IMG/VR virus record: IMGVR_UViG_3300001683_000016
Coordinates: 1-64,000 of that record
Reading direction: 5' to 3' (one strand)
Source: a virus
Length of the DNA: 64,000 bases
Below the pieces are notes generated by a model. The model was not told where the DNA came from, ran no database searches, and worked only from the letters and a program-made list of their open reading frames with translations. Below, in pieces: positions 19,748 through 55,063 of the stretch. Every line of letters begins with the position of its first letter. The first letter of the stretch is position 1. The position numbers were made by a program, and so were the translations under genes.

Positions 19748-20416
19748 TTACGCCACTTGTCTAGCAACATCGCCTATTCGTTGTTGCATGATATCTCTTG
19801 TTTGATTGTTCCTAAGCACAGACAGGGCTGCATTCATAGCATCGCTACCACCGTGTTTATCGTATGACTGTCCCATTTCTTCAGGTGTCATCTGCCCATA
19901 GACTTCTTCTGTATGTGGCGGCTTATATTGCATTGATTGTAATTCAGACACTTCCGACCCCCAACCTTGTCCTTTAGGTGCTCCTTGTGCTCTATACGGT
20001 CCAGCGCCACCTACATCAACATAGGTGGGTGTTCCATCAGGTCTCATCAATACGTTGTCCATATCCGCACCTAACGCATCCCAATTACCAATCAACGCCT
20101 GAGGTACGAAATCTTCTCTTAGCCTCTTCTTATCATCATAAGATACATTTCTAGCCCCTTCTTCAAAATCTGTGAGCATAGTGGGTCTACCTCTTTCTTC
20201 TACCATTTCAGCATTAGGTACGGCCAAACCTAATTTATTCAGGTAGCGATTCATATCGAACTCATTATTGATATGTGCTGCGGGGTTACCGCCAGCAAAC
20301 CCTCCTCGCTTTACCACAACTCTCTTTCCGTTAGGTAATGTGCGTAAACCTGCACCAGTAGAGCCTCTGAGTCTGACTTCTTCTTTAAGAAAAGCCCATG
20401 CATCATGTATTGTCAT
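19748..20416 (-). CDS. HipA/PI3K-like kinase with cassette-type N-terminal tag
   Basis: 222 residues. Kinase features: VVVKRGG with K36, E52 in NNEF, a hinge-like LTDFEEG at 81-87, the catalytic segment NWDALGADMDNVL (111-123) with D120/N121, and VDVGG (133-137) with metal-binding D134. This order fits atypical kinases of the HipA/PI3K-like group. Residues 1-12 (MTIHDAWAFLKE) match the A-W-x-L/F-L-K tag of the rightward virion cassettes, although this gene is on the opposite strand among non-structural genes. I infer a packaged kinase acting early in the host. The substrate cannot be inferred. Confidence 0.6.
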   Translation of the reverse strand: MTIHDAWAFLKEEVRLRGSTGAGLRTLPNGKRVVVKRGGFAGGNPAAHINNEFDMNRYLNKLGLAVPNAEMVEERGRPTMLTDFEEGARNVSYDDKKRLREDFVPQALIGNWDALGADMDNVLMRPDGTPTYVDVGGAGPYRAQGAPKGQGWGSEVSELQSMQYKPPHTEEVYGQMTPEEMGQSYDKHGGSDAMNAALSVLRNNQTRDIMQQRIGDVARQVA

Positions 20417-45070: not shown

Positions 45071-45451
45071 ATGTCGGCGGCATTCGGTAATGCATGGAAT
45101 GTGCTCAAAGCGTTACCAAATCAGCAAGTTGAGATACCCGGTGCACGATATACTTCTCATGGGCCGCAGCCAGTAAAAACTATGCATCCGGGGATTGCTT
45201 CGTTGTTGGCGAGGAAGCCGGGTGCCAATATACAAAATCCTGATATGATTGATTCGCAAAATATGGAAATGCACATGAGTGGGGAAGAAAGGGGTGGTCC
45301 AGCGCAACTTTGGGACCCCGTTAATGAAAAAATGATAACATTACCTATGAGTGAATCGTCTATGTCTGATGTTCATATGAATGATTATGGCAAAAAGCCA
45401 AATTGGGCGCTTAACTCAGTAGGAAGATTGGCTAACGATGGTCAATCATAA
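45071..45451 (+). CDS. Tagged cassette protein 1, cargo unknown
   Basis: 126 residues, first rightward gene. Tag: MSAAFGNAWNVLKALP (F-x-x-A-W-x-x-L-K). Start ATG 45071 is chosen because it places the tag at the N-terminus, as in the next genes; the frame stays open further upstream into the repeat array, without support. The rest is Met/Pro/Asn-rich with no known domain. No strong ribosome-binding site is seen. Confidence 0.55.
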   Translation: MSAAFGNAWNVLKALPNQQVEIPGARYTSHGPQPVKTMHPGIASLLARKPGANIQNPDMIDSQNMEMHMSGEERGGPAQLWDPVNEKMITLPMSESSMSDVHMNDYGKKPNWALNSVGRLANDGQS

Positions 45452-45539
45452 GGTCCTAGATTCATTGGCGACTCATTTTTGTTCCATGTTAAAGAGTAAC
45501 GGGCGGCAGTTCAAAATAGAGTAACGCTATGTGAGGAGC

Positions 45540-46286
45540 ATGGTGGCAGCGTTCGACCAAGCGTGGGCTTTGCTGAAGGCAGTAGAGTTCGACCCTTATG
45601 CTAAGGACATAAAGGAGGCTCGCCCCTTCAAAGCATATCGTAGTATTCCGACGAAGTTCCTCGATGAGGTGCTTTCCGAAGGCATACAGCCAAGAAGTGT
45701 AGAGCCATGGACGGAAAGGATGCAGAGAAGCGGCCTCAAGCCTGAAACGAGCGCCAGCAAAGCCCATGTTTGGTCACCGAGTGACAAAGGAGTGTGGTCG
45801 TTCATGCATAAAAGAGGTGCTTTACCCAATACCAAAGGGCAACAAGAACTGAGAGAATCATGGCCTTATGCCCCTGTGAGTCATCCTGCTCTGTCTGCGC
45901 GGTATTTTGCTGATAACTTTAGTCGTCGGGCGGCAGAAATAGCAGAGACACCTGAACATATTAAAAGCAAAAAAATGCTTGATGGGGTAAAATCATCATC
46001 GACTATGCCCCCTCAGTCATTTTGGGACGAATATGCGAAACTGAATGACAATCTCCAACACTCGATAGTAGGTTCCACTATATTACCTCCGGGCAAGAGA
46101 TTCGAGGACTTGGATTGGCACAAGGGTCGTGACTATGCGACAAAACCTATACTAACGACAGACCCAATACCAGCGAGATATTTAGATGAGGCTATCCCGT
46201 TAGACTTTCAAGGAAACGAAATCCGTTATACACAAGGTAGTCGCATACCAGATAATTTTCGTAATGAATGGGGGTTTAACGAATGA
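45540..46286 (+). CDS. Tagged cassette protein 2, ADP-ribosyltransferase-like cargo
   Basis: 248 residues from ATG 45540, with GAGGAG just upstream. Tag: MVAAFDQAWALLKAVE. Cargo begins FKAYRSIPTKFLDEVLSEGIQP, which resembles the first strand and helix of ART-fold proteins (Y-R-x-x-P/T...I-x-x-x-G-I/L), and ends ILTTDPIPARYLDEAIPLDF, like the last ART strands. The catalytic residues are not certain. T4 packages ART enzymes (Alt) with an N-terminal targeting peptide, which is the model here; the comparison is inference. Confidence 0.4.
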   Translation: MVAAFDQAWALLKAVEFDPYAKDIKEARPFKAYRSIPTKFLDEVLSEGIQPRSVEPWTERMQRSGLKPETSASKAHVWSPSDKGVWSFMHKRGALPNTKGQQELRESWPYAPVSHPALSARYFADNFSRRAAEIAETPEHIKSKKMLDGVKSSSTMPPQSFWDEYAKLNDNLQHSIVGSTILPPGKRFEDLDWHKGRDYATKPILTTDPIPARYLDEAIPLDFQGNEIRYTQGSRIPDNFRNEWGFNE

Positions 46287-46927
46287 ACCCCTTCAACCAA
46301 GCGTGGCTTTTGCTGAAGTCCGAAATGCTGTTGTGGCCCAAACAACTCAACAATTACCGCAGCCCCGACTCTGCCAAGAGCAAGCCTGAATTGAGAATGC
46401 CGGGGCAGTTCAAGAAGCCGAGCGCAGCCGGATTCACTCAATTGTATCAGAAACCCGGTTTGGCTCGTTCATACGTGTCTCTTCCCAATATGGAACAACC
46501 GGGAAGTAGGATTGGTCTGAATAGCACTCTTAATGACCCCGCTATATCGGATAAGGACAAGGCAGGAGTCCAAGGAAGATATGATGAGCGTTTAGCCCAC
46601 AATGTGATGGGAACTGATGTACACGAGGATACGCATGTTGCGATGGATAGGATTGGGGAGACTTCGGACAATCCTTACCACAATGAGTTACCAGCCCACA
46701 TAGCAGAGACGCTTCAATTCACGAGAAGGCCGAGAGAAACGATAAACTCCAATGATGTGGTGCTTCAAGACCTCGATAGCGGCATGTCCCCTACTGAAGT
46801 CGCAGTCAAACGTGGAAAACAAGGAGCGATGATGCATCAACAGGTTAGTGGAACTGGACCCGATAATGGGATGTACACAACTGTAGGGCCGCAGAAGTTC
46901 ACCTATACGGGGGAACAGGGACAATGA
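46283..46927 (+). CDS. Tagged cassette protein 3, HExxH metallopeptidase-like cargo
   Basis: 214 residues. Tag MNPFNQAWLLLKSE at 1-14. HEDTH at 114-118 is a HExxH zinc motif, and NELPAHIAETL at 134-144 gives an acidic third ligand at usual gluzincin distance. A small zinc protease or toxin domain is likely. Start overlaps the preceding stop in ATGA. If packaged, it could act on host proteins on entry or on capsid precursors. Confidence 0.5.
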   Translation: MNPFNQAWLLLKSEMLLWPKQLNNYRSPDSAKSKPELRMPGQFKKPSAAGFTQLYQKPGLARSYVSLPNMEQPGSRIGLNSTLNDPAISDKDKAGVQGRYDERLAHNVMGTDVHEDTHVAMDRIGETSDNPYHNELPAHIAETLQFTRRPRETINSNDVVLQDLDSGMSPTEVAVKRGKQGAMMHQQVSGTGPDNGMYTTVGPQKFTYTGEQGQ

Positions 46928-47982
46928 ACCCCTTCGACCAAGCGTGGGTTTTGCTGAAACAAGAAGATAATAGAGATGAGATGATTGAAGGTGCATACCC
47001 TCACGAAACTCATTTGTGCAAACATTGTGGCTATCCCATCTATCACCATTGGCAACAAGGGCAAGGTGATGGAAGTCACCCACCGCAAGAGGTGTGGAGT
47101 GGTGAAGATGATGAAGGCGGAAACTGTTCAAGCCCAAGTGGATTTTGTGAGCCGGGAGAATCTCTCGGTAGGACATATCAAAGTGGTGAACCAATTGAGG
47201 CCACACCCGAATCGCACCCGAATCAAATCTACTTGAATGGGCGATTGGTTGATGCGAATGATTGGACAGACGAGCATGAAGCAGAAGTGAATGCTAACAA
47301 AGACCCGGAATCGGGCCAGCCGCTAGTCAATTGGAATGATACTTGGGATTGGAATAAGGATATTCAAACAGGCGAACCTATGGAAGTCGCTATGCGGTTG
47401 TTGAAGGATGATGACCCTCTGCAACATGTTGGGACATTTCTCAATCAATTAACACCGGATGATACGGGGGTTGAAAGATTAGGCGACCATACTGTTCACT
47501 TTGAAGGATTTACTGATATGTGCAATCTGTCAATCACACCTAATTGCCCTGCTGAACAATTACACCAAGAAGTGTGGGATGACTTTGATAAGCGACAAGG
47601 GCAAGAAGCCATCCATAGAGGTAAATGGGGTACGGAAGAAAACCCTACTATTTATTCTGTATATCATACACCGCAAGATGAGGTCAAAACAGGCGAACCT
47701 ATGGACATCGCCATGCGGTTGTTGAAGGGGCGTAACCTTTCACCAGCAGCACGTAAACACAAGTTGGAATACGATACAAAATACGAGTCTAACCCTAAAA
47801 GGGTCAAATATAGAGTTGACCTGAATCGTGAAAGACGGCGCAGGGGCATCTATGGTTCGGGCAACCGTAAAGATGTGAGTCATACCGAAGGTGGTAAACT
47901 CACCTTAGAAAACGAACACGATAATAGGGCTAGGCACTTTAAGGGTAAAGGCACACTTCGCAGAGTTAAGGTGAAGAAATGA
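46924..47982 (+). CDS. Tagged cassette protein 4 with two internal tags and HNH-like end
   Basis: 352 residues. N-terminal tag MNPFDQAWVLLKQE. CKHCGYPIYHHW at ~38-49 with later Cys suggests a zinc site. Internal copies GEPMEVAMRLLK (~151-162) and GEPMDIAMRLLK (~258-269) follow. The last ~75 residues (KRVKYRVDLNRERRRRGIYG, then DVSHTEGGKLTLENEHDNRA) are nearly the same as the end of the 960-residue protein at 51813; the conserved D, H, N and H residues give it an HNH-like look, though this is unproven. Looks like three cassettes fused into one frame. Confidence 0.6.
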   Translation: MNPFDQAWVLLKQEDNRDEMIEGAYPHETHLCKHCGYPIYHHWQQGQGDGSHPPQEVWSGEDDEGGNCSSPSGFCEPGESLGRTYQSGEPIEATPESHPNQIYLNGRLVDANDWTDEHEAEVNANKDPESGQPLVNWNDTWDWNKDIQTGEPMEVAMRLLKDDDPLQHVGTFLNQLTPDDTGVERLGDHTVHFEGFTDMCNLSITPNCPAEQLHQEVWDDFDKRQGQEAIHRGKWGTEENPTIYSVYHTPQDEVKTGEPMDIAMRLLKGRNLSPAARKHKLEYDTKYESNPKRVKYRVDLNRERRRRGIYGSGNRKDVSHTEGGKLTLENEHDNRARHFKGKGTLRRVKVKK

Positions 47983-48476
47983 ACCCCTTCAACCAAGCGT
48001 GGCTTTTGCTGAAGGCACCCATTTATGAAACAGGTATTCCCAACATCAATTTTGTTACACAAGGCCCATTTCCAGACCCTTTTTGGAGGGAAGAGGAAAA
48101 TGTATACGGCTACGTTCCTGATGACCCAAAAGGGAATGCGTATGGCTATTATGATGAAGGAAATGAGGTTGGGGAGATTCAACATATGACACCCGGTGAA
48201 TACGGAAAAATGACTACTGGTGAGGAAAAGGGTGGTATGTATGTTGACGCATTGGGAAGAAAAAAGTCTCCAAGAGAGTCAGATGACACTTTCTATCAAG
48301 AGTTGATGGATAGGGCACAAGCGGGAGAGAACGTCAAGTTCGGTATGCCGTATGTTTTTCCCGATTTTGAGCCTGAAACATATCATGATGGGAGACATAG
48401 AATGGCTGAACTCTTCGCTCGTGGTCATGGTGATACACCCTTACCAGTCAAAGTCATGAGGGGGACTCACGGATGA
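47979..48476 (+). CDS. Tagged cassette protein 5, ParB/sulfiredoxin-like cargo
   Basis: 165 residues. Tag MNPFNQAWLLLKAP. Near the C-terminus YHDGRHRMAELFARGHGDTP followed by LPVKVMRG matches the D-G-x-H-R-x2-A-x4-G core of the ParB/Srx fold used by ParB nuclease-like domains of phage polyvalent proteins. The fold can bind nucleotide; the activity is unknown. The middle is polar and unassigned. Confidence 0.45.
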   Translation: MNPFNQAWLLLKAPIYETGIPNINFVTQGPFPDPFWREEENVYGYVPDDPKGNAYGYYDEGNEVGEIQHMTPGEYGKMTTGEEKGGMYVDALGRKKSPRESDDTFYQELMDRAQAGENVKFGMPYVFPDFEPETYHDGRHRMAELFARGHGDTPLPVKVMRGTHG

Positions 48477-48946
48477 ACCCCTTTGACCGAGCGTGGGCTT
48501 TGCTCAAACAAGATACGCGTCAAAGTACGTTAGGTGAGTATCATCCTGATTTTCCTTCCCCATATGGCGATGTGAAGTATTACCATGGGACAACAGTAGA
48601 GCCAGCGTCGAGAATTAACTTTGAAGGGTTGAAGCCGACGGAACCTTCCACGCTAGGGTGGAATCGAAAACTAAGTGGAATGTTTCCTAAAGGTGTATAT
48701 GCAACCGATAATAAAGATGTAGCAGCCGATTATGCCCACACGAGAGGGCAAAATAGGAATCAACAGGGTCGAATATTTGGAATAAGGGAAGGGGCACCCC
48801 AACAAGCAAATCCTACAACGCCGTTAACGCCGAATGCGCCCGATAACGTATTTCGATATGACGAAAAAATACCGAGACAGTATCTTACTCCGGTAGATTA
48901 CCCAAGTGAGAAACTTGTCCCATATTTTAGGTACGGAGATGAGTGA
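48473..48946 (+). CDS. Tagged cassette protein 6, ADP-ribosyltransferase/PT-like cargo
   Basis: 157 residues. Tag MNPFDRAWALLKQD followed by TRQSTL, also found after an internal tag in the 960-residue protein. YYHGTT at 36-41, then EGLKP, and GVYATDN...AADYA at 74-87 follow the H-Y-[EQ]-like ART/phosphotransferase pattern (Y-H-G-T...G-x-Y-x-T...A-x-x-Y-A). Likely an ART-superfamily domain modifying a host target. An acidic catalytic residue could not be placed with certainty. Confidence 0.55.
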   Translation: MNPFDRAWALLKQDTRQSTLGEYHPDFPSPYGDVKYYHGTTVEPASRINFEGLKPTEPSTLGWNRKLSGMFPKGVYATDNKDVAADYAHTRGQNRNQQGRIFGIREGAPQQANPTTPLTPNAPDNVFRYDEKIPRQYLTPVDYPSEKLVPYFRYGDE

Positions 48947-49795
48947 ATGAGTGACTTCTCCATTTACGAAGTTGGTCCACGCGACGGTCTACAGAGCGCC
49001 GACACAATAACATCAACATATGACAAAGTAACCCTGATACGAAAAATTGCTAAGGCCGGTATCAAAAATATCGAAGTTGGCTCAATGGTCAATCCTGACA
49101 GAGTTCCTAATATGGCCGATAGCGATGTGGTTTTTCTCAAGGTTCAAGATTTAGCGCCTGAGCACAATCTCGGTGTCTTAGTGCCTAATCGCAGGGGAGT
49201 TGAGAGAGGAAAGGCTGTAGGTGTGGAAAAGTTCAATATTTTTTTCTCGCCGTCCAACTTTTTCAATGTCAATAACTTCGGAAAGAGCCTAAATACGATT
49301 TTTGCTGAATATTGTGGTGCATTAGACGGAATCCGACCCGAAAACGTTAGAGTATACCTTTCTACAGCCTTTGGATGTCCCATAATAGGTGAAATACCGC
49401 AAGAAGATATGTTAAAAACCATGGAATGGGCTAATACGCTGGGTGATACTATCGTTTTGTCTGATACAATTGGCAATGCTAACCCGTCCTTAATTCGTAA
49501 AGTGATGCGTTTAACTGACAGAAAAATAGATGCTAAGATAGCACTACATCTACATCATGGATTTAGAGAGGGTAGAATGTATGATAACTTGTCTGCTGGC
49601 TTTGATTGTGGGATAACTCAGTTCGATTCAAGCATTGGTGGGATGGGCGGATGTCCGTTTATACCGGGTTCAGGGGGCAATTTAGCCACTGAACAATTAG
49701 TACGCTGGGGTAGTAAAGAGAATCTTGATTGTGGTGTTACGATTAAAGATTTAGAACCGCTAATGAAGTTTGTAAATACTAGAATAAAAGTATAG
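48947..49795 (+). CDS. HMG-CoA lyase-like DRE-TIM metallolyase
   Basis: 282 residues, the usual length. HMG-CoA lyase splits 3-hydroxy-3-methylglutaryl-CoA into acetyl-CoA and acetoacetate. Visible residues: EVGPRDGLQ (8-16) with catalytic R and D, STAFGCPIIGEI, SDTIGNANPS, the metal HLHH in IALHLHH, and GGMGGCPFIPG followed by SGGNLATE, which holds the active-site Cys loop. It starts right after cassette 6 with GAGTGAATG and has no tag. Archaeal lipids are built from HMG-CoA through mevalonate, so this enzyme could drain that pathway or feed acetyl-CoA; both are inference. Other DRE-TIM aldolases are less likely because of the GGCPFxPG loop. Confidence 0.85.
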   Translation: MSDFSIYEVGPRDGLQSADTITSTYDKVTLIRKIAKAGIKNIEVGSMVNPDRVPNMADSDVVFLKVQDLAPEHNLGVLVPNRRGVERGKAVGVEKFNIFFSPSNFFNVNNFGKSLNTIFAEYCGALDGIRPENVRVYLSTAFGCPIIGEIPQEDMLKTMEWANTLGDTIVLSDTIGNANPSLIRKVMRLTDRKIDAKIALHLHHGFREGRMYDNLSAGFDCGITQFDSSIGGMGGCPFIPGSGGNLATEQLVRWGSKENLDCGVTIKDLEPLMKFVNTRIKV

Positions 49796-49807
49796 CGTTA
49801 ATAGCAA

Positions 49808-50629
49808 TCATGCTACGGCGACCTGCCCGCCAGTTCCTGTACTGGCTTTTGCTCGACCTGCTGATGACAAATCTTCAATTCTTTTCATTTCGGCTTGTTG
49901 TTTGGCTTGATTTTGCTGTTTATGCTGTTCTAGTTGATTAAAACCGTATGCGCCTGTTGCTGACGCTACGCCAATTGGAGTGTTAGTTTTTTGACTATCG
50001 TCGTAATTTTTCTGCGCATCTTGCAATTTTTCATTCATTTTATCGCTTTGTGATTGAGCGGCATTGACATTTTGTTGAGCGATATTTTCGGTTTCATAAG
50101 CATCCATTACTTCGGGTGTAAAAGAGGTTTGACCAGTATCAAAGCCTGTACCTTCTGTTAGTTTGGTAGTTTCCATACTCGGTGTTTCTGTCGCTGCATC
50201 TTCTGCTCTTTGTGATAATTGTCCAAACGGATTATTTTCACCCGATTGAGATTCAAAGCCTGTACCACCATATTGTGTTAAGTCTGCATCTTCACCGGGC
50301 AAATCCGCAAATCTTTTCTTTGCTGCTCCACTTTTATAATTAGGACCGCGAGAATAGGAAACACGCCCTGCTTGTCCAGTCGTCATTGATGCTGTTTGTG
50401 CAGCCTTACTTGCATCGCGTGCAGCCTTCAAACCTTTCCCCGCTTGCGCTGCTTTTCTCCCAGCCAATAATGCTCTACCACCTTGAACTCCGACCATAGC
50501 ACCTCTTGCCGCAGCACCTGCTGCTAGTGAAGCGCCACCCGTAAAAGGTGCAGCCAGTATAGAGGCTGCTGTTAATGCAGTTCCTAATTTACCTTTCACC
50601 ACTAAAACAGAAGGTGTGGCGGCTCCCAT
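49808..50629 (-). CDS. Lone leftward Ala/Gly/Gln-rich protein within the rightward block
   Basis: 273 residues from ATG 50629 (MGAATPSVL), with GGTGGGAGT just upstream; a GTG start at 50713 is possible. A hydrophobic Ala/Gly stretch (LGTALTAASILAAPFTGGASLAAGAAAR, about 13-40) could cross a membrane. Later parts are Gln/Ser/Lys-rich helices (QQNVNAAQSQSDKMNEKLQD). Typical of a minor virion or pore-forming protein. It lies opposite to all surrounding genes, convergent with the HMG-CoA lyase. Confidence 0.55.
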   Translation of the reverse strand: MGAATPSVLVVKGKLGTALTAASILAAPFTGGASLAAGAAARGAMVGVQGGRALLAGRKAAQAGKGLKAARDASKAAQTASMTTGQAGRVSYSRGPNYKSGAAKKRFADLPGEDADLTQYGGTGFESQSGENNPFGQLSQRAEDAATETPSMETTKLTEGTGFDTGQTSFTPEVMDAYETENIAQQNVNAAQSQSDKMNEKLQDAQKNYDDSQKTNTPIGVASATGAYGFNQLEQHKQQNQAKQQAEMKRIEDLSSAGRAKASTGTGGQVAVA

Positions 50630-50789
50630 ACTCCCACCTGTATTGCGGTGATGATGAGTGGTATGGAAAGAAGAAGTTGCAACAACTTGAACCTGCGGAA
50701 AGGGAACCACCACGAATACAGCACGAAGCGTAACATATTAGAAGTATCGCACTAGTAGAGAAGGTGTTAGCAGTACGGCGGAGAGCAAA

Positions 50790-51053
50790 ATGAAACCAAT
50801 AGATGCAGCAATAAAACTTCTAAAATCTACCCCTTCTTCTCAAGTCGCTATGCAACACGATATGCCTTCTTACATGGAAGAAGCGCTAAATCAAAGCGGT
50901 AAAACTCGTTCTGATAGCCGAAAAAAGAAAGACAAGGCTACAAAGTTACGTCAAAAAATAGACGACCATGAAGAAGATTCGCAAATAATTGATTTCTATA
51001 GACAGAATCACCCTGAGTGGTTTGATTCATTTAGAGGTGGCGAAGGTGAGTAA
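50790..51053 (+). CDS. Tagged cassette protein 7, small
   Basis: 87 residues. Tag MKPIDAAIKLLKST, with I for F/M and W. The rest is charged and helical (KTRSDSRKKKDKATKLRQK) with an acidic end. No enzyme motif. Confidence 0.55.
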   Translation: MKPIDAAIKLLKSTPSSQVAMQHDMPSYMEEALNQSGKTRSDSRKKKDKATKLRQKIDDHEEDSQIIDFYRQNHPEWFDSFRGGEGE

Positions 51054-51579
51054 ATTGAATAAAAGACCAAAGAAAGGTGTTGCAGTAGTTATTAGCATCG
51101 GTCCTAAAATGAAAACTAAGCCAACGGATGCTGCTACTCCTGAAATGCCAATAAAGAAGTATGGTTCAATGCCAATGAAAAAGGCAATGGCTGTTCTAAA
51201 ACAAAGGGGTAAATATGTACCCACAACTGCTGAAGATGAATATGTTGCATCAAATTCTGAAAATCGACATCATCCTATGAGTAATAGAGAAAAGGATGAG
51301 GCGTGGAAAGAGGCGCAGTTAGATGGAAGATATGATGAAGATTACTATCCCGATGAGGATGAAACACCTATATGGAATGATAATCGACAACCAATCGGTA
51401 AACCTGAGTTTGGTAATGAAGGTGCACGTGAAGCAGAAATGAATCAAGCAGAGCGTGCTGCAATAATGGCAGAAGGTATGCCTGAGGGGCGTAGACCTCG
51501 TATTCCACCTCGAACAGAAGGTTTTGACCCTAATAAGCAAGGTCGAGTGCCAAGAGATATTTTTCAAAATAGAAGGTAA
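51046..51579 (+). CDS. Hypothetical protein with tag-like motif
   Basis: 177 residues from GTG 51046 (VSKLNKRPKKG), overlapping the previous stop by 8 bases; the frame is open further upstream but inside the previous gene. MPMKKAMAVLKQ at ~42-53 resembles the internal tag. A polar, acidic and Pro-rich remainder suggests a disordered virion or scaffold protein. Confidence 0.5.
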   Translation: MSKLNKRPKKGVAVVISIGPKMKTKPTDAATPEMPIKKYGSMPMKKAMAVLKQRGKYVPTTAEDEYVASNSENRHHPMSNREKDEAWKEAQLDGRYDEDYYPDEDETPIWNDNRQPIGKPEFGNEGAREAEMNQAERAAIMAEGMPEGRRPRIPPRTEGFDPNKQGRVPRDIFQNRR

Positions 51580-51583
51580 GTGA

Positions 51584-51811
51584 ATGAGTGCTTTCACAAA
51601 ATCTTGGCTATTTCTCAAAACCGAGCCAATTGATATGCAGCAAGGCTCAGATGGAACTTGGCGTGCACCTCAGGAAGATATAACACCAGAAAAAAAATTG
51701 TGGCAACAAATCCAAGCAAGAAACGCACAGGCTAGGCAAAACTTGCAGAAACCTGCACAAGTAGCACAACCTAAACCTACACCACAACCGGGGTATTCAG
51801 GATGGATGTAA
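51584..51811 (+). CDS. Tagged cassette protein 8, small
   Basis: 75 residues. Tag MSAFTKSWLFLKTE. The remainder is Gln/Pro/Ala-rich and probably disordered. Starts 4 bases after the previous stop, with AAGGTAAGTGA upstream. Confidence 0.55.
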   Translation: MSAFTKSWLFLKTEPIDMQQGSDGTWRAPQEDITPEKKLWQQIQARNAQARQNLQKPAQVAQPKPTPQPGYSGWM

Positions 51812-51812
51812 A

Positions 51813-54695
51813 ATGGTATTCAATAAATCTTGGAACTATTTGAAATCAATAAGCGATTGGTCGTCTACTGATAGTTTATATGGTAATGAGTATGAAGATG
51901 AACCTAGTATAGAAAGAAGAAATACTCCAACTATGGATAACTCGTATCAAAAAATCTTACCTCAAGATGACCCAAGATTAGATTATAGAACTGGTTGGAA
52001 AGGTGTAGAACCCGTTAGGGCTATTCGTGTACAATCAAATCATCGAAAGGCAGGTCAACCCGTACCTCAAGACGGCTCTAATATAAATTATGAACAAGGT
52101 GACCCAAAGTTACCGCCAAAGATTCCTGAGATACCTGATGACGATGACCCTGTTTGGGATGACCCCGACTCACGATGGAGTAAAGACCCCAAATCGGGTT
52201 CAAGATATTATATGTCGGGTAAATATGAAGATGGTAAGTATATTTCTCGTAAAAACAAGCATTTTGTTGATTTGAAAAATGCAAAGGCTGGAACTTGGGC
52301 TGCAAACAATACTGTTGGGGATATTAATAATTTATATACTCATAACCAACCTGATAAGTTGGTCTATATTCGTGGGAGTCCCGATAAATATGGTAAAGTA
52401 CACAGAAGGGATAGTGACGAAGCGGATGAAGGTTTAGCAGAAATGTTTATCGAACATAAAAAAGATATTTCACCTGAAAACCTTGTTGAAGTACCGTTAA
52501 AGACTCATTATAGAAACCAAACAAAAGATATGGGTACTCCTGACCTTGGGCATAATAGACGCTCAAAAAGTGATAAAAGCGGGCGAGTTAGTCGTTGGAG
52601 TGATAAACCTGTACCTTGGGGCTACAGCCACAAGAAAAAGGGCGAACCAATGGACATAGCCTTCCAGTTGCTCAAGATGTCTGCTGATGAAGCAGATGAG
52701 TTGGAAGAGCAAATGCTTTCTGATATGGAAAGAGGGACCAGTAATCCACGCTCACGAAGAAAACAGCGAAGTATGGGCGAAAGGGAATCAAAGGCATCTA
52801 TCCATAATTTTCCCGGTTCATCATCTCGTAGAGAAATGTGGGATGAAAAGCAGAAAGAAAGAGACTGGGAACGATGGGGAAAGAGACATGCTGAAGATAA
52901 AGCAATTGCAGGAAAAGACCTACCCTCATATCATGGGTTTGGTAGCGATAGGCTAAGAGAAATCCATCCGGGTGATAGAGGGAACGATTTCTCATCTATG
53001 AAACCGGGAAAATATGAGTTTGACGGTGTAGGTAGGGAAGAAAGACCCATACCTTTTGAGCCGGGTGATAACCTTATGGAGTGGTTACAGCCCGGATACA
53101 ACGAATCTAACAACCTAAGACTATTCAGGGATAAGGATGACTCTAAACATGAGTGGCAACCAAAACCGTGGACAACAAGTGGCCCTATCAATCATGTTCC
53201 CGAAACCCAAGAATGGGTAAACAACCCTTTTGATGAAGAACCAACTTTTCACGGGATACCATTCAATGAAGATACGGGTTTCACAACAGGTGAACCAATG
53301 GACATAGCCTTCCAGTTGCTCAAGGGAAAGACAAGGCAATCTACTCTTTGGGGTTACGACCCAAAAATGGTAGAGAACTTACTCGCAGAAGATAACAGTA
53401 ATATTTTCATCGCCGCTAAACCCGGAAACGATGATATGCCCGATGATGAACAAAATGAGCGTTCGGATAAAATGCTACAAGACCTCGCCGCACTCAAAGA
53501 GGAACATGGTCACTTCGATATAACCAGTGCCACAGGTAGAGCGCAGTGGGACGCAGAACCATCTTTCATGCTCACTAACGTGCCTGATAGTGCAAGGGAT
53601 TCCATTAATGAGATAGCGGAAAGATACGGTCAGGAATCCATGGGAATCTCGGAAAAGGGGGAGAAAGGGGTGAACTACGTTACACCGGAGGGGGAGGTAA
53701 AGGACAAGTTCAGTAGTATGGAGATGCAGGAAAAACCGGAGTACTCTACAGATTTTCCGAGTAGTCAGAGGCTGGCTTTTACGGGTTGGCAGGAAGCAAA
53801 TAAGGCTAATCCAATGCACATAGCCTTCCAGTTGCTCAAGGGTTGGGCAGGTGGTGTTAGAGGTATAGGTAATAATGCCACGGACAACATTTATCATTAT
53901 CCACACGAATTAGATTACGGCGCGATAGACGAATATATGGGTGAGAATCCTGATGCTACTCTCGGTAGTATGGTAACGCCGTATCTACAAGGACAGTTTA
54001 CAAATAATCCTCCTCTCTTTCCAGAATTAAGCACAAATCCGCCAACCTATCAAAGTGAAAGACCTACTCAATTACAAAGCACAGTTCCGGCACCTTTTCC
54101 ACAAACCCCCGAACAATCTAAAGGTGTTCAAAATCTCATTGATGATGGATTTGAAAACTATGAATCTAGAGATAGAACGAGAAAACCCCATTACGATAGC
54201 ATGAATAATGCAGTCAGAGTATTATCTAGAAATTTAAGAAGAAACCCTGCATACAATTTTACGCCGCCGGGACGATTACGAGGCACTAAGGGACAGGGCG
54301 GTAGAAGTAGGCAAATGCAGAACATGAAACTAAGAAGTTTGTTAGATACTCCTGTATCTCAAAGTATGGCAGAGATGAACATACCGAAACAAGGAATACC
54401 AATTGCGGCAGGCGAACCAATGAACATAGCCTTCCAATTGCTCAAAGAGCGCAAGTCACCAGCAGCATTTGCTCACAAGTTAGAGTATGACAAGCAATAT
54501 CAAAAGACACCTAAGCGCGTAAAGTACCGTGAGCAATTAAACGCAGAGCGTAGGAAGCGTGGCATATACGGTAAGGGTGGTGCGGATGTTAGCCACACAC
54601 AAGGTGGTAAACTCACTCTTGAAAGCGCACATGCTAATAGAGCAAGACATTTCAAAAACAAAGGCACTCTCCGCAGGGTCAAGGTGAAAAAATGA
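51813..54695 (+). CDS. 960-residue multi-tag protein with HNH-like end
   Basis: Starts with the tag MVFNKSWNYLKS and carries four internal tags at about residues 276, 493, 665 and 867, dividing it into segments of roughly 95-275 residues. Segment 1 has KYISRKNKHFVDLKNA and a possible ART-like YIRGSPDKYG; segment 3 follows its tag with TRQSTLWGYDP, like cassette 6. The last ~75 residues are the HNH-like module shared with the 46924 gene. No membrane segment. Reads as several cassettes fused in one frame; it may be cut at or near the tags in the virion. Confidence 0.6.
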   Translation: MVFNKSWNYLKSISDWSSTDSLYGNEYEDEPSIERRNTPTMDNSYQKILPQDDPRLDYRTGWKGVEPVRAIRVQSNHRKAGQPVPQDGSNINYEQGDPKLPPKIPEIPDDDDPVWDDPDSRWSKDPKSGSRYYMSGKYEDGKYISRKNKHFVDLKNAKAGTWAANNTVGDINNLYTHNQPDKLVYIRGSPDKYGKVHRRDSDEADEGLAEMFIEHKKDISPENLVEVPLKTHYRNQTKDMGTPDLGHNRRSKSDKSGRVSRWSDKPVPWGYSHKKKGEPMDIAFQLLKMSADEADELEEQMLSDMERGTSNPRSRRKQRSMGERESKASIHNFPGSSSRREMWDEKQKERDWERWGKRHAEDKAIAGKDLPSYHGFGSDRLREIHPGDRGNDFSSMKPGKYEFDGVGREERPIPFEPGDNLMEWLQPGYNESNNLRLFRDKDDSKHEWQPKPWTTSGPINHVPETQEWVNNPFDEEPTFHGIPFNEDTGFTTGEPMDIAFQLLKGKTRQSTLWGYDPKMVENLLAEDNSNIFIAAKPGNDDMPDDEQNERSDKMLQDLAALKEEHGHFDITSATGRAQWDAEPSFMLTNVPDSARDSINEIAERYGQESMGISEKGEKGVNYVTPEGEVKDKFSSMEMQEKPEYSTDFPSSQRLAFTGWQEANKANPMHIAFQLLKGWAGGVRGIGNNATDNIYHYPHELDYGAIDEYMGENPDATLGSMVTPYLQGQFTNNPPLFPELSTNPPTYQSERPTQLQSTVPAPFPQTPEQSKGVQNLIDDGFENYESRDRTRKPHYDSMNNAVRVLSRNLRRNPAYNFTPPGRLRGTKGQGGRSRQMQNMKLRSLLDTPVSQSMAEMNIPKQGIPIAAGEPMNIAFQLLKERKSPAAFAHKLEYDKQYQKTPKRVKYREQLNAERRKRGIYGKGGADVSHTQGGKLTLESAHANRARHFKNKGTLRRVKVKK

Positions 54696-55063
54696 GTAAT
54701 TATCCGTCATACCCAACGACACCTCCTAAAAAATGTGAATATTGTAATGGTGCTGGAATTATTGACCCTTATGGTGATGAAGAGGATGTGGCTCAGGCTG
54801 ACCCAAGATATCCACATGAAACATGTTGGAAGTGCAAAGGAACAGGTATACAGACAGAATGGTCATTTAACCCATATATGCCTTCTTTCCACCCCCCTTC
54901 TTTCCCCCCCCCTTCTTTCCACCCCCCTTCTTACCACGCCCCTCCCCCGTCCAAAATGGAATTAGGAGAGCCAACAATTAATTTTGACCCTGAATGGCAA
55001 GAAATGAATAAAAGTTCTAGTGTTGCATTTTCATTAGCGTGGAACTTACTTAAATCAGAATAA
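54692..55063 (+). CDS. Zinc-finger/Pro-rich protein with C-terminal tag
   Basis: 123 residues. CEYCNGAGI and CWKCKGTG form a DnaJ-type zinc knuckle (~13-50). Residues ~65-88 are repeats of P-S-F-H-P-P. The last 14 residues, VAFSLAWNLLKSE, match the tag but at the C-terminus, unlike all other proteins. Overlaps the previous stop in ATGA. Confidence 0.6.
   Translation: MSNYPSYPTTPPKKCEYCNGAGIIDPYGDEEDVAQADPRYPHETCWKCKGTGIQTEWSFNPYMPSFHPPSFPPPSFHPPSYHAPPPSKMELGEPTINFDPEWQEMNKSSSVAFSLAWNLLKSE
54889..54947 (+). repeat. Low-complexity CCTTCTTTCCACCCC repeat
   Basis: Four imperfect copies of a ~15-bp C-rich unit, with runs of up to nine C, inside the 54692 gene. It encodes the Pro/Ser/Phe/His repeat. 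Prone to slippage, so length may vary between isolates or assemblies. Confidence 0.7.

Follow-up and report, generated by a model that had tools for sequence, protein, structure and literature searches.

In phage T4, the capsid targeting sequence (CTS) is a sequence of 10 residues carried by the internal proteins IPI-III and by the packaged ADP-ribosyltransferase (ART) Alt, and these proteins are processed by gp21 (PMC9026906). Proteins inside the head, some of which are cut by the prohead protease, have also been described in P1 (DarA and Hdf) and in SPN3US, with propeptides that are mostly long; a shared short tag is not described in the available portions of these papers (PMC12810830, PMC10052503). 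The polyvalent proteins (Iyer et al. 2017, PMC5512222) are multidomain virus effectors with ART, peptidase, ParB-like and other domains that are thought to be packaged in the head. In HK97, the capsid protein is cleaved after Lys103, at the site K103/S104 (PMC10275583). Magroviruses infect marine group II archaea, and the Magrovirales are characterized, in the available text of two papers, by genomes of ~90-110 kb, PolB, an ERCC4-type nuclease, an S78 protease, opposed replication and morphogenesis modules and a major capsid protein (MCP) related to that of the Druskaviridae (PMC10160649, PMC12999244).

The window analysed here, a stretch of 64 kb, is the first part of a 115,554-bp virus record, and the genome has all of these traits, as judged from the published descriptions. 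The base skews shift near 44 kb, where the gene strand changes from minus to plus. The minus-strand half contains genes for a group II chaperonin, PolB, an ERCC4 nuclease and a helicase, while the plus-strand half contains genes for TerL, the portal, an S78 prohead protease and an SU10-type capsid protein, followed by long tail-like genes. The S78 prohead protease/scaffold (L002:15968-17332) was identified with Pfam PF04586 (E 2.4e-9, 38 bits as compared to a curated cut-off of 21), and the closest isolates by capsid protein are Druskaviridae. A LAGLIDADG-like gene is located between the genes for TerL and the portal (L002:6115-7257).

The genome encodes a tag of 10 residues, [PA]-[FM]-[DEN]-x-A-[WFM]-x-[LV]-L-K, which is present in 17 copies in 11 genes in the interval 45071-55063 and in 19 copies in 13 genes in the entire 115.5-kb genome. 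The tag is found at N-terminal, internal (GEPMDIAFQLLK) or C-terminal positions, with six internal copies and one C-terminal copy in the interval. A preliminary description had listed nine gene starts in this interval with a shared N-terminal tag, and all nine carry one. The N-terminal position holds for these starts, but internal and C-terminal copies are common, also among relatives, and ten copies had been missed: two in the gene at 46924, four in the gene at 51813, one near 51169, and those at 55025-55054, 60529-60558 and 20384-20413. With one exception, the tags are confined to the stretch from the early/late switch to the packaging genes, and the tail genes in this genome have none.

The tagged genes of the interval are all encoded on the plus strand, and those within 45531-48946 overlap by 4 bp at four junctions, indicative of tight coupling. 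The first gene (45071-45451, 126 aa) has the N-terminal tag AFGNAWNVLK (45080-45109) and a downstream module without an assigned family. The next (45540-46286) has the N-terminal tag AFDQAWALLK (45549-45578) and a module without a family match, in which an ART-like stretch is recognizable by eye only. In the third (46283-46927), the N-terminal tag PFNQAWLLLK (46289-46318) precedes a metallopeptidase-like module with an HExxH motif (HEDTH), and the residues that are invariant among its relatives are mainly those of the tag plus H114, E115 and H118. The gene at 46924-47982 has three tags, of which one is N-terminal (46930-46959) and two are internal and of the GEPM type (47377-47406, 47698-47727), and its last module matches phrog_6437. 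An N-terminal tag (47985-48014) is also found in the gene at 47979-48476, where a ParB/sulfiredoxin-like motif, HDGRHRMAEL, was seen by eye only; this module gave no convincing match in Pfam and no match in PDB. The gene at 48473-48946 combines the N-terminal tag PFDRAWALLK (48479-48508) with a module assigned to the ADP-ribosyltransferase fold by profile and fold comparisons. It is followed by an untagged gene for an HMGL-like enzyme (48947-49795, plus strand), which provides context within the array only.

Further downstream, three genes have N-terminal tags: PIDAAIKLLK (50796-50825) in the gene at 50790-51053, PMKKAMAVLK (51172-51201) in the gene at 51169-51579, for which the start was inferred at the ATG at 51169 inside the ORF 50989-51579, and AFTKSWLFLK (51590-51619) in the gene at 51584-51811. 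The largest product of the array (51813-54695, 960 aa) is modular, with an N-terminal tag at 51816-51845, four further tags at 52647-52676, 53295-53324, 53811-53840 and 54417-54446, and phrog_6437 as its last module. In the gene at 54692-55063, a cysteine-rich N-terminal part with a weak match to a DnaJ-type zinc domain is followed by the C-terminal tag AFSLAWNLLK (55025-55054), two residues from the stop. Two tagged genes are located outside of the interval. A conserved gene upstream of TerL (60088-61509, plus strand) has the internal tag PMNIAFQLLK (60529-60558) followed by a basic module, and an early-strand gene (19748-20416, minus strand) has the N-terminal tag TIHDAWAFLK (20384-20413) and kinase-like motifs seen by eye only, with no match in Pfam and no homologue in the loci that were fetched.

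A tag profile applied to all 10-mers of the predicted proteins gave a bimodal distribution, with scores of 10.5-32.6 for the tags and of 7.0 and 2.7 for the sequences ranked next. Because the training set consisted of tags selected by regular expression, including those of this genome, the gap is informative and the absolute score is not. The ORF at 50790 was outside the list of scored genes, and its tag was established separately. Among 2557 ORF proteins from related loci, the strict motif P[MFIL]xxA[WFIMYL]x[LFM][LM]K was found 265 times, as compared to 0 times in reversed and 0 times in shuffled sequences. For the N-terminal form, 378 occurrences start in the first 20 residues, as compared to 6 at any position in the reversed proteins. 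Of 32 large related records, 31 were matched by one of two DNA patterns for the tag and 0 by the backward control patterns; some loci were fetched with the tag patterns and their tag frequencies are thus seeded, which is partly offset by whole-record scans that include records fetched by the capsid protein only. The information content starts to climb a few residues ahead of the Pro, remains high up to the Lys and is near background directly thereafter. When each position was freed in turn, the Ala, the Leu-Leu and the Lys were nearly fixed, a value that is inflated because some sites were seeded by the pattern. The final residue is Lys in 556 cases and Arg in 2. Ala is enriched 3.8-fold after N-terminal tags and Met 3.9-fold directly after them, as if tags had been placed before old start codons. 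These results confirm that the tag is discrete and real, and larger in extent than first described.

The pattern for internal tags matched 117 IMG/VR stretches and that for N-terminal tags 101. An S78 protease relative, with 39-97% identity, was identified in 47 of 49 tag-bearing records, and the remaining two have a related PolB; all 49 records tested are magrovirus relatives. Conservation of the motif in related viruses had been suggested beforehand as a check, and the tag was found across the whole virus group with varied domains behind it. In a divergent clade with ~40% protease identity (G086, G088, G090-G092), each record has 3-16 N-terminal tags and 0 internal tags of the GEPM type. With the two DNA patterns, no tag was found in the related haloviruses HVTV-1, HCTV-1 and HCTV-5, which are Druskaviridae. 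The available text of openly licensed papers on magroviruses does not describe the tag. In the relatives, 377 tags are N-terminal, 238 are internal and 34 are C-terminal, the last ending mostly 2-7 residues before the stop.

Like the T4 CTS, the tag is a peptide of about 10 residues that is common to otherwise unrelated proteins, in viruses that encode a maturation protease. The T4 propeptides are N-terminal, removable and limited to a handful of proteins, whereas the tag is present in hundreds of proteins, ends in Lys and also occurs at internal and C-terminal positions. Because of these additional positions, the tag would work like the CTS without being a member of that class, and we regard the CTS as its closest functional analogue, likened by length and predicted use.

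Modules are exchanged at the tag, since the tag is a self-contained boundary. In the relatives, 534 distinct tagged proteins were divided into 743 modules, which form ~385 single-linkage clusters, a number that depends on the cut-offs. At tags other than N-terminal ones, at least two downstream clusters are found behind each of 26 upstream clusters (44 upstream clusters have at least two members), and 28 downstream clusters are joined to at least two upstream clusters (41 have at least two members), with a single downstream module found behind 22 different upstream contexts. For 86 modules with N-terminal tags, homologues were identified behind internal tags, and the alignment usually begins at the first residue after the Lys. 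In 406 pairs with unrelated upstream parts, many of them from the phrog_6437 family, the identity is ~5% upstream, near 100% at the key residues of the tag and high afterwards; since the pairs were chosen from alignments that start near the Lys, the evidence lies in the constant 5% upstream and in the abrupt increase on reaching the tag. Unrelated modules are thus swapped exactly at the final Lys, between viruses and between tag positions, which makes the tag a clear example of how modules are exchanged at a constant peptide boundary.

Such swapping would also be expected if the tag were a by-product of recombination, that is, a short DNA repeat without a role of its own, and the codon use in the tags is less varied than in the genome as a whole, with a preference for CCA, GCT, TTG and CTC. 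However, all synonymous codons are found while the residues stay fixed, the N-terminal and internal forms differ in sequence and yet retain the A, LL and K, and hundreds of proteins with a single module have kept their tags. We disfavour this explanation, which we consider very improbable.

We compared the modules to Pfam, PHROGs and NCBIfam. Most modules match nothing, and the matches, mostly with one member each, include DUF5872, DUF6321, HD/RelA-SpoT, SLOG, GNAT, DnaJ-type zinc, HTH, ParB-like domains and phrog_6437, in addition to which there are basic proteins. The phrog_6437 module is found near structural genes in Synechococcus phages; a module that had been called HNH-like in the preliminary description matches this family. 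A YHGT-type ART motif is present in 34 modules as compared to 1 in reversed sequences, and HExxH in 48 modules as compared to 6. For the module at 48473, profile matches were obtained to Tpt1, exotoxin A and PARP chains, and the best Foldseek match was to Tpt1/KptA (E 5.7e-4). The support for an ADP-ribosyltransferase fold is moderate, because the TM-scores are ~0.40-0.45 and the pLDDT of the model is 75. This model places the tag in a helix of its own (residues 3-14), with a linker of low confidence behind it. No named PolyVal domain reached its gathering score, with ART-PolyVal at E 0.093 and 13.9 bits as compared to 31.2.

The diversity of the modules also bears on the idea that the tag is merely the visible part of a larger shared fold, in favour of which no point was found. 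As stated in the preliminary description, the sequences differ completely behind the tag: 99 tagged proteins align in the tag alone, with a mean column identity of 4%, and the clusters match different families. A shared fold of this kind is extremely improbable.

The tagged set resembles the polyvalent proteins in its domains, which in magroviruses are encoded by separate tagged genes or are modules with a tag in between. Large proteins without the tag are encoded in the head operon of HVTV-1 and include HExxH, zeta and ART-like regions, the last recognized by eye, which suggests that magroviruses carry effectors of the HVTV-1 type as tagged, exchangeable units. The HVTV-1 proteins gp113, gp115 and gp116 (L353:10230-19018) have a repeated VY[VI]xSPxEAPE-like stretch in common; gp113 contains HEMGH, and in gp115, annotated as a zeta toxin, the C-terminus looks ART-like by eye.

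We propose, with a probability of roughly 60%, that the tag is a portable head-targeting signal of magroviruses, whether cleaved or not, and the packaging of cargo suggested in the preliminary description is thus plausibly correct. This reading is preferred because the tagged genes are located on the head-gene strand, the tag co-occurs with the S78 protease, the modules are of the types found in such cargo, the size is like that of the T4 signal and the final Lys is like that in HK97. It is also in line with the separate helix and the weakly defined linker of the ART model. As a short helix, the tag would dock in the head during assembly, with the shell, the scaffold part of the S78 protease or the core as candidate partners, and would thereby draw the attached domains into the head. 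The cargo, with ADP-ribosyltransferase-fold, HExxH, nucleotide-acting and basic proteins, would then be ejected along with the DNA and serve to seize control of the host or to disarm it. The early-strand tag at 20384-20413 counts against head targeting and is more easily explained if the tag helix serves to dock proteins onto a hub that collects effectors in the infected cell and is unrelated to the head, such as the virus-encoded group II chaperonin, a replication/transcription complex or a host protein. Tags at either end of and inside proteins are also typical of docking motifs, and a chaperonin is indeed encoded in the genome. However, the tagged genes are nearly all on the late, head-gene strand (25 of 25 tags were on the strand of the capsid gene in 13 records fetched by the capsid protein), the types of cargo match known head-packaged effectors, and docking as such needs no sharp Lys end with modules starting behind it. 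We consider a hub outside of the virion unlikely.

If the tag targets proteins to the head, N-terminal and internal tags are probably cleaved behind their final Lys by the S78 prohead protease, which would free the downstream module and split proteins with several tags into single effectors. Cleavage is favoured because of the nearly invariant Lys, the enrichment of Ala after it and the start of the modules exactly there. HK97 and magroviruses both have a protease of the S78 family, and the MCP of the magrovirus group keeps LLK|AD, with the K|AD site of the capsid protein retained from magroviruses to HVTV-1 at ~35% identity. We know of no tagged cargo packaged by HK97. Head targeting in combination with cleavage after Lys is possible but falls short of being the probable outcome. 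Equally tentative is the broader suggestion that a whole order of archaeal viruses has plug-in cargo, in which the tag loads hundreds of swappable effectors and doubles as the cut site of polyproteins.

The C-terminal tags, so close to the stop, do not fit a simple cleaved leader and instead fit a docking signal. They would be accounted for by a head-targeting signal that is never cleaved and in which the Lys belongs to the surface used for binding, as would the finding that the sites in the MCP and the protease have just LLK in common with the tag. The three features of the Lys boundary named above resemble a cut site and speak against this version of head targeting, which we find rather unlikely. 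The LLK sites of the MCP and the protease were tried as full tags, and their profile scores were too low, with only (L/I)LK shared; the Lys at these sites in the protease may be structural in the S78 family. The AlphaFold model of the MCP, made to place K34, has a pLDDT of 32.

Taken as an address label, which it most likely is, the tag resembles the packaging signal of T4, but its use is far wider and more modular. If this is correct, hundreds of genes that lack annotation in abundant marine viruses can be read directly from sequence as a predicted set of effectors, and the tag would be a portable peptide with which to load proteins into HK97-type shells. To our knowledge, no cargo-loading signal has previously been reported in archaeal tailed viruses. 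The tag also makes the identity of the proteins injected by a marine archaeal virus directly testable.

The tag was also searched for in cellular genomes, where the genome collection gave 23 matches as compared to ~15 expected by our own arithmetic from the degeneracy of the pattern, most of which were unconvincing as tags. One contig of a Maricaulis MAG (L334:93-125) carries SEPMDIAFQLLK and is probably a magrovirus contig that was mis-binned. Mimicry by the tag of the scaffold C-terminal peptide MSWDEVHxLA was rejected, since this peptide ranks 5635 of 36690 10-mers under the tag profile. The C-terminal peptide MSW[DE][DE][VI]HxxA is common to the protease/scaffold (L002:15968-17335) and a small upstream gene (L002:9426-9776) in many relatives, and is perhaps shell-binding.
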